From an uncultured Myxococcales bacterium (GTDB lineage Bacteria; Myxococcota_A; Polyangia; Polyangiales; Polyangiaceae), in assembly GCA_937872925.1 (NCBI GenBank), contig CALMUT010000228.1, positions 1 through 64,000 on the forward strand: a stretch of 64,000 nt of DNA, written 5' to 3'. The number at the start of each line of letters is the position of its first letter. Position 1 is the stretch's first letter. Shown here one piece after another: positions 868 to 5,898 of the stretch. The notes beneath the pieces were generated by a model. That model made no database searches. It was not told the DNA's origin and was given only the letters and a program-made list of their open reading frames with translations. The position numbers and the translations under genes are program-made.

Positions 868-1365
868 CTAGCGCCGAGTGCGTCGTCGGCGCCGTGAACC
901 CAGGAGGAGCACGCTCGCCACGCAAAGGGCGAGGAGCGTGGCGTCTGGATCCAACCGTGCGTTTGGATTAGCAATGCGCGCGCCGCAGCCATACTGCGGG
1001 CCGCAAATCGAGGCATCGCCTGCGAGGTTCGGATCCCGACCTTGGCGTAGCTCTTCAACGTCACCCACGCCGTCGCCATCACTGTCCGTTCCGGCGGCGT
1101 CGAGGGCGTCTAGAGCGGTCTTGACGGTGCTTGCAGCCTCACCCTCTAGACCGTTGTCGATGAGCGCATCGGCAAAAGCTTTGGTCGCGGTGCCAGCTCC
1201 GCCAGTCGTGTCCTGATGGCACACCGTGCACGGCGCCGCGCAATCCATCTCGAGGGCGTCGAGGATCTCCGTGGGGTACGATGGCGATGCCGCGACCGAA
1301 CCAGCAAGCAGCGTCACGCCAATGGCCAGCAGAGCGACGCGAATGGTTCGTTTACAAGTAGACAT
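868..1365 (-). CDS. Exported CxxCH heme protein with TSP3 motif and MYXO-CTERM-like tail
   Basis: 165 residues. A signal peptide ends near residue 26. One c-type heme motif CTVCH lies at 46-50. A thrombospondin type 3-like calcium loop (DSDGDGVGD, about 94-102) is followed by EELRQGRDP. The C-terminus has a Cys/Gly stretch (CGPQYGCGAR, 121-130), a hydrophobic helix (about 142-156) and a final run of arginines, the layout of MYXO-CTERM surface-sorting signals. It probably sits on the cell surface and binds one heme. Its start overlaps the end of the upstream barrel gene by 14 bp, which suggests translational coupling. Its redox partner is unknown. The architecture is seen directly; the electron-transfer role is inferred. 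Confidence 0.75.
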   Translation of the reverse strand: MSTCKRTIRVALLAIGVTLLAGSVAASPSYPTEILDALEMDCAAPCTVCHQDTTGGAGTATKAFADALIDNGLEGEAASTVKTALDALDAAGTDSDGDGVGDVEELRQGRDPNLAGDASICGPQYGCGARIANPNARLDPDATLLALCVASVLLLGSRRRRRTRR

Positions 1366-2839
1366 GTAGCTGCCCCATCAACAAAAACGGATCTTCTTGG
1401 CGAAGGACGGCGTCCACCCGCAACTCTAACTGCGGCAGGAAAAACCAGTCCACGGTCAGCCATCCGCCAAGGCGTGGCTTTCCAGTTCCCGCGACCCGCG
1501 GCACGTCGATGCCGGGCACGCTGCTCTCTTCGGGTTTGTAGCCCTTGTCCAAAATTTCGCCGGTCGCTCCCAGGTGCAAGCCTTGCACTGGCTCGTAGTC
1601 CAATTGCGTGAAGGCCACATAGCCGAGTTCCCTTCGAGACTTGTGCAGCGCATCCGCTTCGAACAAGAGCACGACGGGCTCCGACACTTTGACCCGAAAG
1701 AAGACGCCGTGAGTGCCCCGTGCGGTGGACTCTTCTTCGAGAGTGATGACATCCGCTGCGGAAAAGGTCATCAAACTGCTCACGCCAGTAGCAAAGGGCT
1801 CCGTGACCAGAGTCTCCACATACATGCTGTACCCGCGCTCGCGGTAGCGGTCCGGGTTCACCTGATAGTTGCCGGCGACGAGCATAGCTTCGCCGCGAAA
1901 GAGCGAGCCATTATAGGAAATTGACGCGCCGTGGTGTTGGTCACTCTCGCGGTCCGTGCGCGTGACCTCCCGCACCCACATCACGTGCTCCGGAATGCGC
2001 ACTCCGAAGGGCAGATTCAATCGACCCGCGCGCAGAGTCACTTGGCGACTCTTCCCGAAGTCGAAACCAACCCAATGCGTACGGGAGATCGCGTTGAACT
2101 CCTCGCCCTGGTTCGATGTGATCTGCGCTCCGCGCGCGTGGGGCGATCCGGCGGGGACCCGCGCAGCACCGACACTCCCTCCGATACGAATGCTGCCGAG
2201 GGTCAGCTGCCCGTACAAGTCCGCCTGCATCGGGAAGTTTCGAAACTCCCCGCCCTTCAACAGCGAGACGTGCCGATAGCTGCCACTCAGTAGCAGCGCG
2301 TCCGGTAGATCAATCAGACCCCAGAGGAATCCCGTTCCGGGGTTGTCGCTGTCCGAGGCGCTGAGTTCCTCGTCGGACGCGGCTTCATCGGGCGTCTTCT
2401 TCTTCTTCTTCTTTTTCTTCTTCTTGTCGCCGTCAGCTGCGTCCGTTTCGTCTAGGTCCTCGACATCAGTCTTGCCGGCCTTGGCCTTGCTCACATCGTC
2501 GTCGCCAGCCTCTTTGCCTTTGGGCTCGGAGTCGAAGTCGTCGAAGTCGTCAAAAGAGTCCGTGCTTTCGGACTCCGTGGCGCTCGATTGGGCGGACAGG
2601 TTGTCCTTGCCATAACGCATGCGCAAGATCAGATCGCCCTGGGTCCGGCCATACGCGGTCAACAACTCACCGCCGGATGGGTCCGCGTGGCAAACGTTGC
2701 AGCCGCCGTAGCCGTGGCGGATCATCCACGTATATGCACTGGCTGGCTCTGCCCAAGTGAAAAGCGCAGCAAACACGACCAGCGCGGCGAGCGGCGGCCC
2801 AAGACGCACGAAGCTCTTGGCCAAGCAGCGAAAACTCAT
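1352..2839 (-). CDS. Predicted outer-membrane barrel with N-terminal CxxCH heme motif
   Basis: 495 residues. A signal peptide is likely cut after the ASA at 33-35. A small heme domain carries CNVCH at 47-51. A very acidic/lysine linker (about 85-165) includes ten lysines in a row at 139-148. About 320 residues then show alternating strands with Gly and aromatic residues, a GRLNLPFG motif as in phosphate-selective porin-like barrels, and an aromatic end (LHVYL) resembling an outer-membrane beta-signal. The inference is a porin fused to a monoheme domain that could pass electrons or ions across the outer membrane. It sits between a YceI-like gene upstream and the small CxxCH gene downstream, with which it overlaps by 14 bp. 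Known two-component porin-cytochromes (Mtr type) use separate multiheme subunits, so this would be a different arrangement. Confidence 0.7.
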   Translation of the reverse strand: MSFRCLAKSFVRLGPPLAALVVFAALFTWAEPASAYTWMIRHGYGGCNVCHADPSGGELLTAYGRTQGDLILRMRYGKDNLSAQSSATESESTDSFDDFDDFDSEPKGKEAGDDDVSKAKAGKTDVEDLDETDAADGDKKKKKKKKKKTPDEAASDEELSASDSDNPGTGFLWGLIDLPDALLLSGSYRHVSLLKGGEFRNFPMQADLYGQLTLGSIRIGGSVGAARVPAGSPHARGAQITSNQGEEFNAISRTHWVGFDFGKSRQVTLRAGRLNLPFGVRIPEHVMWVREVTRTDRESDQHHGASISYNGSLFRGEAMLVAGNYQVNPDRYRERGYSMYVETLVTEPFATGVSSLMTFSAADVITLEEESTARGTHGVFFRVKVSEPVVLLFEADALHKSRRELGYVAFTQLDYEPVQGLHLGATGEILDKGYKPEESSVPGIDVPRVAGTGKPRLGGWLTVDWFFLPQLELRVDAVLRQEDPFLLMGQLHVYL

Positions 2840-2909: not shown

Positions 2910-3455
2910 TTACTTGTCGCGAAGCTTGAACTTTACCTTGAGCTTGATCTCGGGGTCGACACACACGCCGAGGTAGCAAGGCACCTCGATGTCGTGATGG
3001 CGGATGTCGACAGTGGCGCGGCCTTGCACATGAAAATCGCTGCCAGTTCGCTTTGCTTTGTAGGTGATCTTCAACGGCTTGGTCACGCCGGCTAGCGTTA
3101 GACTGCCCGTTGCACTTCCGGTGACGGTCTTCTTGTCGCCGGGAAGCTTGAGCTTGCTGCGGTCCACTTCAAGCACCGCCGTCTTGTGCGTATCCGACTT
3201 GATATACTTCTTTAGATGTTTGTCGCGCAAACCAATGCCGGTCTTCAGGTCATCAACGGGAACCTTGATCTTGAGTTTTCCGCCACTCTCGCTGGCAGTC
3301 AGATCCGAGGCCTTCCCGTTGATCTTCATCCCGGCAGGACCTAGGGCGAGAAAGCGCACGTCTTCATCTCCAGCACTCTCGAATTTCGCGGAGGCTCCGA
3401 GGGGAATGGCGAGCCCGAGAGCGAGGGCGGATGCGATGAGAACGTTACGCTTCAT
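2910..3455 (-). CDS. YceI-like exported lipid-binding protein
   Basis: 181 residues with a clear signal peptide (MKRN start, cut after GASA). The mature part has the YceI pattern: repeated beta-strand segments, a D-L-K-T-G-x-x-x-R-D-x-H-L-K stretch near residue 67, and TGSLTLAGVTKPL typical of the family core. YceI proteins are periplasmic lipocalin-like barrels that bind isoprenoid quinones or similar amphiphiles. I start it at 3455 because the signal peptide begins there and a purine-rich GGAGT lies upstream; the longer frame to 3602 has no signal-like N-terminus. It is the first gene of the minus-strand redox group, which fits a quinone-linked role, but that is inference. Confidence 0.75.
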   Translation of the reverse strand: MKRNVLIASALALGLAIPLGASAKFESAGDEDVRFLALGPAGMKINGKASDLTASESGGKLKIKVPVDDLKTGIGLRDKHLKKYIKSDTHKTAVLEVDRSKLKLPGDKKTVTGSATGSLTLAGVTKPLKITYKAKRTGSDFHVQGRATVDIRHHDIEVPCYLGVCVDPEIKLKVKFKLRDK

Positions 3456-3708: not shown

Positions 3709-4152
3709 TCAGTCGGCCCCTGGGACGATTCGGCGGCTCAGCAGCCCAAAAAACCAAGGGGGCTCTTGCCCCGAGTCCGCTTCGAAGCGCCATCCCATGT
3801 GAATGTGGCAGCTCTGACACGACGCGATGCGCCAAAGATAGCCGGCAAACCATGTGTGCAGGCTTTCGGCGCTGGCGCTGAACACCAGGCCCCAGGCCGC
3901 GGTGAAACAGGTGATCTCACAGATCACGCCTTCGGGATTGGTGAACGCACGCTCTGGACCGGCCCCGTTCGGCGCGAACAGGTATTCGGCGGCGGTGATC
4001 CGCGCGCCGCAAGCTGCGCAACGGTACCGGGGGAGCTTCTGGGACGCCACGCCGTCAACGGATGGATCACCCTGGCGCGCCGAGCTGGCTGCAGAGCCAT
4101 CCGGGGCCTGGCGGACTTGGTGAGCGAGGCAGCCCCTAACGTGTTGCATCAT
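3709..4152 (-). CDS. CULT-domain protein (cereblon-like thalidomide-binding fold)
   Basis: 147 residues. The C-terminal two thirds match the CULT domain of cereblon and bacterial homologues. Zinc ligand pairs are C45-x2-C48 and C112-x2-C115. An F-x-N-P-x-G-x-x-x-E segment lies near 70-79. The core HTWFAGYLWRIASC (99-112) with GWRF (120-123) supplies the three tryptophans (W101, W107, W121) that form the aromatic cage binding uracil-like or glutarimide ligands. FGLLSRR follows at 135-141. About 40 residues of unassigned sequence precede the domain. Start 4152 (or the adjacent Met at 4149) overlaps the end of rsmG by about 17 bp, so it is probably translated from the same message. There is no signal peptide. 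The natural ligand of bacterial CULT proteins is unsettled. Domain call is firm; exact start less so. Confidence 0.85.
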   Translation of the reverse strand: MMQHVRGCLAHQVRQAPDGSAASSARQGDPSVDGVASQKLPRYRCAACGARITAAEYLFAPNGAGPERAFTNPEGVICEITCFTAAWGLVFSASAESLHTWFAGYLWRIASCQSCHIHMGWRFEADSGQEPPWFFGLLSRRIVPGAD

Positions 4153-4851: not shown

Positions 4852-5898
4852 ATGGAAGCACCGACCGAACGCCTGGAAGCGATCGTACAGAAGATGGCAG
4901 GTACGGAGGGGCCGCTGCGGATCTCCCCGATGCCCGGCGGCGCGTCCACCCGAGAGTTCTTCCGGGTCGAGCTACCCTCTGGGGAGCGGGCGGTCGCGAT
5001 GTTCGTGCCGGATGCCAATCGGTCCGACGAAATCGACAAATCCAATGGGAAGCGCACCGTATGGCCGTTCCTGGAAGTTCGAGCGCTGCTGCAAGAGCGC
5101 GGCGTGCGCGTGCCCCGATTGCTGGGCGAAGCGTGTCACGAAGGGCTCATTCTGGTGGAAGACCTAGGCGACGACACCCTCGCCAACTATCTGCAGCAGC
5201 ACCCAGAGCAGCGAAAAGCCCTCTATCAGAGCGCGGTGCGCGACTTAGCCGAGGCCCAGCGTGTACTGGACCCGCTACCCACGGACAGCGTGGTTCGCAG
5301 CAGGGCGTTTGACGAAGACCTGCTGCGATGGGAAGTGGATCACTTCCGAGAGTGGGCTCTAGAAGCACGGGGCACGCATCTAACCGCGGCTCAGGCGCAG
5401 ACCTTTGCGGAAGCGCGCGACTACCTCGCCGCAACGATCGCGAGCTGGCCGCGCCACTTTGTGCATCGCGACTACCAAAGCCGCAACCTGATGGTCCGAG
5501 CCGGAACCAAACAGCCCGAACTGGTCTGGATTGACTTTCAAGATGCGCTGCTCGGTCCGCGTGTCTACGATCTGGTCGCACTGCTGAGCGACAGCTATCA
5601 GGCCTTCACACGAGGATTTGTGGAAGAGCGCTTGGACGAGTTCGCCGCGCACGCGAAGCTTGACGCCTCAGGCCGCGCAAGGGTCGGCCGTGAATTCGAC
5701 ATGGTCACAGTGCAGCGCAAGCTAAAAGACGCTGGCCGCTTCGTATTCATCGAGAAAAAGCGCAACAATCCCCATTTCTTGCCGTTTGTGTCCCCGACGA
5801 TCGAAAAAGTACGCGAAGCCCTGACGCGACTGAGCGACATCCCCGAGCTGGCGTCTTTGGCTGAAGTGTTGGACGCGCGTTGCCCCAGTGCTTCTTAA
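4852..5898 (+). CDS. Aminoglycoside-phosphotransferase-fold kinase, AmgK-like
   Basis: 348 residues with the APH kinase fold: HRDYQSRNLM at 205-214 (catalytic Asp207) and IDFQDA at 227-232 (metal-binding Asp228), then GPRVYDLVALL. The H-R-D-x-x-S-R-N-L-M plus I-D-F-Q-D-A combination is typical of AmgK, which phosphorylates N-acetylmuramic acid or GlcNAc at the anomeric position in peptidoglycan recycling. AmgK is usually followed by the nucleotidyltransferase MurU; no such gene follows here, so the substrate is not certain. The gene is divergent from rsmG. No signal peptide; cytoplasmic. Confidence 0.75.
   Translation: MEAPTERLEAIVQKMAGTEGPLRISPMPGGASTREFFRVELPSGERAVAMFVPDANRSDEIDKSNGKRTVWPFLEVRALLQERGVRVPRLLGEACHEGLILVEDLGDDTLANYLQQHPEQRKALYQSAVRDLAEAQRVLDPLPTDSVVRSRAFDEDLLRWEVDHFREWALEARGTHLTAAQAQTFAEARDYLAATIASWPRHFVHRDYQSRNLMVRAGTKQPELVWIDFQDALLGPRVYDLVALLSDSYQAFTRGFVEERLDEFAAHAKLDASGRARVGREFDMVTVQRKLKDAGRFVFIEKKRNNPHFLPFVSPTIEKVREALTRLSDIPELASLAEVLDARCPSAS

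Follow-up and report, generated by a model that had tools for sequence, protein, structure and literature searches.

A free-standing CULT-domain protein whose gene overlaps rsmG in an uncultured myxobacterium, and its apparent grouping with human cereblon

The window analysed here, a 64,000-nucleotide stretch of DNA from an uncultured Myxococcales bacterium of the Polyangiaceae, contains a gene overlapping rsmG whose product is, as near to certainty as such assignments come, a single-domain bacterial CULT protein. Phylogenetic analysis places this protein, with support values of 98-99/91-92, in a small Myxococcota branch that takes in the CULT domain of human cereblon. Its likeliest job, we infer, is the recognition of proteins damaged by cyclic-imide formation, perhaps for Clp proteolysis. 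The coupling to rsmG is real but local, being a property of one small branch.

Bacterial CULT domains were known mainly from deltaproteobacteria when the family was described in 2015. That description treated cereblon, the secreted proteins and the bacterial CULTs as separate groups, and left natural role and ligand open. One of the bacterial proteins, MsCI4 (MGR_0879) of Magnetospirillum gryphiswaldense (PDB code 4V2Y), is widely employed as a model in crystallographic work on drugs of the thalidomide type.

Identity and predicted structure

The CULT reading frame is intact on the minus strand, running from an ATG at 4152 to a TGA at 3709-3711 (Table 1). The domain is complete and lies at the C-terminal end of the 147-residue protein, with both CxxC pairs, the cage of three Trp residues and the NPxG hairpin. 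The NPxG motif has been named in PMC4449219 as a feature of the hairpin inserted in CULT domains. The four zinc cysteines, N72 and P73, and the three Trp residues are kept in 81-84 of 84 non-redundant relatives, and W101, W107 and W121 align with the cage of MsCI4. The first-pass annotation had listed C45/C48, C112/C115, these same tryptophans and the motifs HTWFAGYLW, GWRF and FGLLSRR; all are present as it described them.

Table 1. Features of the CULT locus, in window coordinates
Feature	Position	Strand	Basis
CULT-domain protein, 147 aa plus stop	3709..4152	-	ORF, phmmer, alignment, AlphaFold2/structure matches
N-terminal extension, residues 1-44, low pLDDT, unconserved	4021..4152	-	alignment, AlphaFold2
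Alternative GTG start, giving a CULT-only protein and no rsmG overlap	4048..4050	-	sequence
First zinc pair, C45xxC48	4009..4020	-	sequence and alignment
NPEG (N72-G75), NPxG hairpin tip of CULT domains	3928..3939	-	sequence and alignment
Cage Trp W101 (W79 in MsCI4)	3850..3852	-	phmmer alignment and relatives
Cage Trp W107 (W85 in MsCI4)	3832..3834	-	phmmer alignment and relatives
Second zinc pair, C112xxC115	3808..3819	-	sequence and alignment
Cage Trp W121 and F123 (WxF/Y)	3784..3792	-	phmmer alignment and relatives
17-bp overlap of CULT start with rsmG end	4136..4152	-	ORF coordinates
rsmG, 16S rRNA (guanine-N7) methyltransferase, sole copy found in genome	4136..4861	-	Pfam/NCBIfam scans, genome search
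YceI-like protein, downstream of CULT	2910..3455	-	Pfam scan; directly after rsmG in CULT-less relatives
Protein with one CxxCH motif and hydrophobic N-terminus, farther downstream, conserved in block	1352..2839	-	ORFs, relatives
Kinase of the APH family, divergently oriented to rsmG and also beside it in relatives	4852..5898	+	Pfam scan, relatives

Although no Pfam or NCBIfam model scored above its cut-off against the protein, its identity is settled by searching the sequences of the PDB, in which phmmer aligned residues 35-145 to MsCI4 (E=2.7e-20, about 35% identity) and to human cereblon (about 1e-15). The AlphaFold2 model has a mean pLDDT of 81, with blocks of 75-98 within the CULT domain. 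Using VIA-align, it superimposes on MsCI4 (PDB code 6r0q) with a Z score of 19.5 and 1.2 Å over 106 residues, and on human cereblon with figures of about 18.5 and 1.3 Å. Its top Foldseek match is the deoxyuridine complex of MsCI4 (4v31, 2.1e-11). The earlier assignment to the single-domain bacterial CULT proteins is thus confirmed by sequence (phmmer), pocket residues and predicted fold, the comparison with cereblon and MsCI4 having recovered the CULT beta-tent. No signal peptide is obvious by eye.

Comparison with MsCI4 reveals the same single CULT domain with two CxxC pairs, Trp cage and NPxG motif, the same fold (predicted for the window protein) and, as there, a short N-terminal stretch ahead of the domain. 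In contrast to MsCI4, the window protein lacks the HxH motif, having Arg at position 68 where 73 of the 84 relatives have His, has a longer loop ahead of its final strands and falls with cereblon in the trees. With the cereblon CULT domain it shares that grouping, the missing HxH, the longer loop and the cage residues, but it is free-standing, with no LON match in Pfam and no DDB1-binding region. The Yippee and Mis18 zinc domains have the same beta-tent fold (PMC4287342), yet CULT sequences and structures are a far better match for the window protein, which possesses the Trp cage; the Yippee-Mis18 family PF03226 scores 15.6 bits against it, below the cut-off of 26.6.

An N-terminal extension of around 40 residues had been singled out in the first-pass annotation as new. 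It is present but not peculiar to this gene, other CULT relatives likewise showing, ahead of their first CxxC, a stretch that varies and lacks conservation. This stretch is 44 residues long in the window protein, 37 in genome G007 and 42 in G078, with no sequence conservation among the three, and it is predicted to be disordered; pLDDT values for the first 40 residues of the window protein are 45-64. Being unconserved and modelled with low confidence, it was ruled out as a new domain. No clear Shine-Dalgarno sequence precedes the ATG at 4152, nor is there a good ribosome-binding site at the alternative GTG at 4050; the ATG is favoured since G007 and G078 likewise have the start codon of CULT in contact with the stop codon of rsmG.

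Relationship to cereblon

In a tree of 83 CULT domains the window protein groups with sequences from G007, G078, G193 and G233 (99/91). When human cereblon was added, these six sequences lay on one side of a branch, again at 99/91, and in a smaller tree of 36 rows the same six split off at 98/92. The eukaryotic side of these trees comprises vertebrate cereblon only, and the branches are long and the bootstraps not fully settled. An AU test of human cereblon nested within the five bacterial sequences against cereblon as their sister gave p 0.284 and did not discriminate between the two. Loss of the HxH motif and the longer loop before the last strands are common to the branch and cereblon.

Against the PDB, the G007 protein matches human cereblon at 77 bits and MsCI4 at 71, and the G233 protein scores 95 bits and 63-74 bits, respectively. 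Scored from the human side, the best three of about 108 sequences all come from the window's branch, MsCI4 achieving about 60 bits. A profile built from the four other branch members gives the human CULT domain 107.7 bits, compared to 75.7 for a profile of other bacterial CULTs and a maximum of 77.2 among 40 random sets of four. The window protein, the most distant member of its branch, scores 99.5 bits with the branch profile and 97.9 with that of other bacterial CULTs, a marginal difference, although the former figure exceeds those of all 40 random sets (maximum 95.7). The profile test is therefore decisive for the human domain and the four relatives, and marginal for the window protein itself. 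As judged from sequence, the window's branch is the bacterial branch nearest to cereblon. Myxococcota CULT proteins that match human cereblon better than they do MsCI4 were observed at loci L137 (8174-8659, minus strand) and L136.

The rsmG overlap

Contact between CULT and rsmG is seen in three genera of the window's family, and in all three genomes the first codon of CULT meets or overlaps the stop codon of rsmG: in G007 the CULT GTG overlaps the rsmG TGA (GTGA), while in G078 the CULT ATG shares one base with it (TGATG). The order rsmG-CULT, a divergent kinase of the same family nearby and the CxxCH protein downstream are common to the window, G007 and G078, with YceI between CULT and the CxxCH protein in the window and G078. 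In G001, of the same genus as the window, and in G067 the CULT gene is missing and YceI comes straight after rsmG. A scan for consensus promoters and terminators gave nothing above shuffled sequences.

Of 108 genomes of the window's family, 100 yielded rsmG and 13 yielded CULT, in three cases beside rsmG. More broadly, the linkage is seen in 3 of 69 CULT-bearing Myxococcota genomes (42 checked genome-wide for RsmG and 27 in the CULT neighbourhood), the gene being elsewhere in the other 66. Thus, the coupling proposed in the first-pass annotation stands as regards the 17-bp overlap, but is confined to one small branch. The survey of Myxococcota that the annotation had suggested goes against any wider link: with so few linked cases among CULT genomes and among the family's rsmG-bearing genomes, and with rsmG retained without CULT in G001, a general rsmG-CULT association was rejected and a connection of CULT to rRNA methylation is not supported. 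In an rsmG tree the three CULT-linked genes are scattered, clustering no more than expected by chance, so that repeated loss or transfer is likely; since the three corresponding CULTs fall in one branch of their own tree, an ancestral insertion with repeated loss fits best.

Elsewhere at this end of the window we observed a short protein with a long tandem repeat of the GGTGGxTGG type (GGATGG at the protein level) at 453-845 on the plus strand, against which an antisense frame (15-1082) is also open. Two adjoining proteins with hydrophobic N-termini and CxxCH/CxxC-H motifs lie at 868-2839 on the minus strand; the longer, which contains a stretch of some ten lysines, is a conserved neighbour of rsmG in relatives.

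Neighbours of CULT genes elsewhere

Neighbours of CULT genes were compared, with no prior choice, in 84 loci; the profile used for genome scanning was narrow, so that the 46 named loci are biased toward the WFAGY motif. Most of the recurrent neighbours are lineage-bound housekeeping genes. At eight Desulfobulbales-type loci (L064, L066, L068, L071, L083, L087, L094 and L098) CULT lies directly downstream of a fused uroporphyrinogen-III synthase/methyltransferase gene (hemD), and a ferrochelatase gene is nearby in gammaproteobacteria. A translation GTPase gene follows CULT in seven genomes (Desulfobacteraceae and one Chromatiales), encoding EF-G at L065, L067, L077 and L078 and an RF3-like factor at L072, L081 and L104, while an RNB nuclease gene sits beside CULT in one myxobacterial family. 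As lineage-bound housekeeping genes, the tetrapyrrole, EF-G/RF3 and RNB neighbours were set aside as clues to function. A tblastn search for phage or plasmid carriage of CULT gave no match. The copy at L140 (8284-8727, minus strand; G355), lacking the first CxxC and the third Trp, is a remnant or a misassembly.

A second set of operon neighbours concerns protein damage or turnover: clpS then clpA (G023), a protein-L-isoaspartate methyltransferase (G379), an S41 protease and an M17 aminopeptidase. These families were written down before 27 further CULT loci were drawn. The operon CULT-clpS-clpA occurs in G016 and G023, both of the window's family, and in G518, which belongs to another family and came from the later-drawn loci; two of the three cases were known before the hypothesis was fixed. 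In each, clpS lies directly downstream of CULT, after gaps of 13 (G016), 22 (G023) and 24 (G518) bp, and is followed by clpA; around the three loci only these genes are conserved. The clpS-clpA pairs downstream of CULT are at L013, L014 and L211.

ClpS is encoded in 67 of 70 genomes searched, mostly in one or two copies, and on our own estimate, which assumes that a genome has about 7,500 genes and that CULT has two adjacent positions, clpS would be expected beside CULT by chance roughly 0.02 times in 69 genomes, against the 3 of 69 CULT-bearing Myxococcota genomes in which it is found. None of 42 non-redundant named loci, most from other phyla, has the link. Since the three clpS-linked CULTs fall near one another, in one loosely supported branch of a weakly resolved tree, the arrangement may reflect a single event kept over family-level divergence. 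The window gene is near neither clpS nor clpA, its genome's clpS being on another contig (C285). At L129 (2311-3520, minus strand) of G379 the CULT gene overlaps or abuts that of the isoaspartate methyltransferase within an operon; this arrangement and those with S41 and M17 were each seen once and picked out after the fact. Among the papers searched, which took in a minority of subscription papers and, of bioRxiv preprints, only those in PMC, none links bacterial CULT to ClpS or ClpA; the one paper on bacterial Clp degrons that names both cereblon and ClpS does not mention bacterial CULT.

Possible function

Damaged proteins that end in a cyclic imide are recognised by cereblon (PMC11974815; Nature 2022 610:775, as cited in PMC10641816), and there is a crystal structure of MsCI4 in complex with a QcQ degron peptide, representing the end of such a degron (PDB code 8BC7; PMC10641816). 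It is this published binding, together with the clpS-clpA operon and the one isoaspartate methyltransferase neighbour, that leads us to favour damaged-protein recognition. On this reading the window protein is a single-domain CULT receptor that is co-translated with rsmG and has kept its zinc site and aromatic cage; its pocket may bind uracil-like rings or cyclic imides of small size. The natural ligand would be an aspartimide or glutarimide, a cyclic imide formed at the C-terminus when proteins are damaged or cleave spontaneously, and the CULT protein would mark such proteins for a Clp-type protease, in the way that cereblon marks them for the proteasome. The coupling with rsmG may set a low, growth-linked level of expression, implying no joint function. 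By analogy with cereblon we suggest, tentatively and at somewhat less than an even chance, that the window protein binds such C-termini and, alone or with partners, hands the proteins bearing them to Clp. The patchy presence of the gene indicates that its function is dispensable.

MsCI4 also binds uracil and uridine (PMC4287342), and this, along with the deoxyuridine complex heading the Foldseek matches and the adjacent gene for an RNA-modifying enzyme in the window's branch, would suit a sensor or buffer of uracil, uridine and related nucleobases acting through some partner. We nevertheless consider such a role unlikely: the neighbour scans turned up no recurrent gene of pyrimidine metabolism next to CULT, the protein carries neither a DNA-binding nor an effector domain, and the rsmG link is limited to three genomes. 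It is distinctly improbable that CULT proteins receive or neutralise small cyclic imides, hydantoins or lactams, environmental or self-made, whether secondary metabolites or break-down products, given that among the scanned neighbours, mostly housekeeping genes, no gene for biosynthesis, transport or resistance is widely recurrent; the patchy distribution would befit an accessory trait, however, and titles of the MsCI4 complexes among the structure matches show a pocket accepting many imide and lactam rings. That the window gene is a dying one, a drifting relic devoid of present function, seems more improbable again, for its frame is intact, its domain is predicted with high confidence and its zinc, cage and NPxG residues are all kept despite drift elsewhere to about 40% identity, features to be weighed against its long branch, its absence from the same-genus genome and the lack of a clear ribosome-binding site. 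Least probable of all, and very much so, is a partnership with RsmG in modifying rRNA or in the quality control of ribosomes, which could draw on the start/stop contacts in three genera and the EF-G or RF3 genes following CULT in seven other genomes, but must contend with the rarity of the adjacency among the family's RsmG-bearing genomes, the CULT-less rsmG of G001 and the location of CULT elsewhere in nearly all CULT-bearing Myxococcota.

For recognition of damaged proteins ahead of Clp proteolysis, the closest known analogue would be ClpS, the N-degron adaptor of ClpAP. Like the proposed CULT adaptor, ClpS is small and its N-terminal part is disordered, and in some relatives the two are encoded in one operon. 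The analogy does not extend to homology, the CULT protein having a different fold and no ClpS match in the Pfam scan.

Implications

The broadest reading of these data, in which bacterial CULTs would be cyclic-imide degradation adaptors working with ClpS/ClpAP and the window's branch would, in addition, be the source or an early exchange partner of the cereblon CULT domain, is in its entirety doubtful. Each half nonetheless touches on a wider matter. The grouping of a Myxococcota branch with human cereblon is relevant to the origin of the eukaryotic degron receptor, and the branch offers small proteins closer to human cereblon than is MsCI4 (95 bits for G233 against about 60). The pocket residues of the window protein match those of human cereblon, the target of thalidomide. 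The conserved CULT-clpS-clpA operon, for its part, ties the CULT domain to regulated proteolysis outside the eukaryotes, whereby its role becomes genetically testable.
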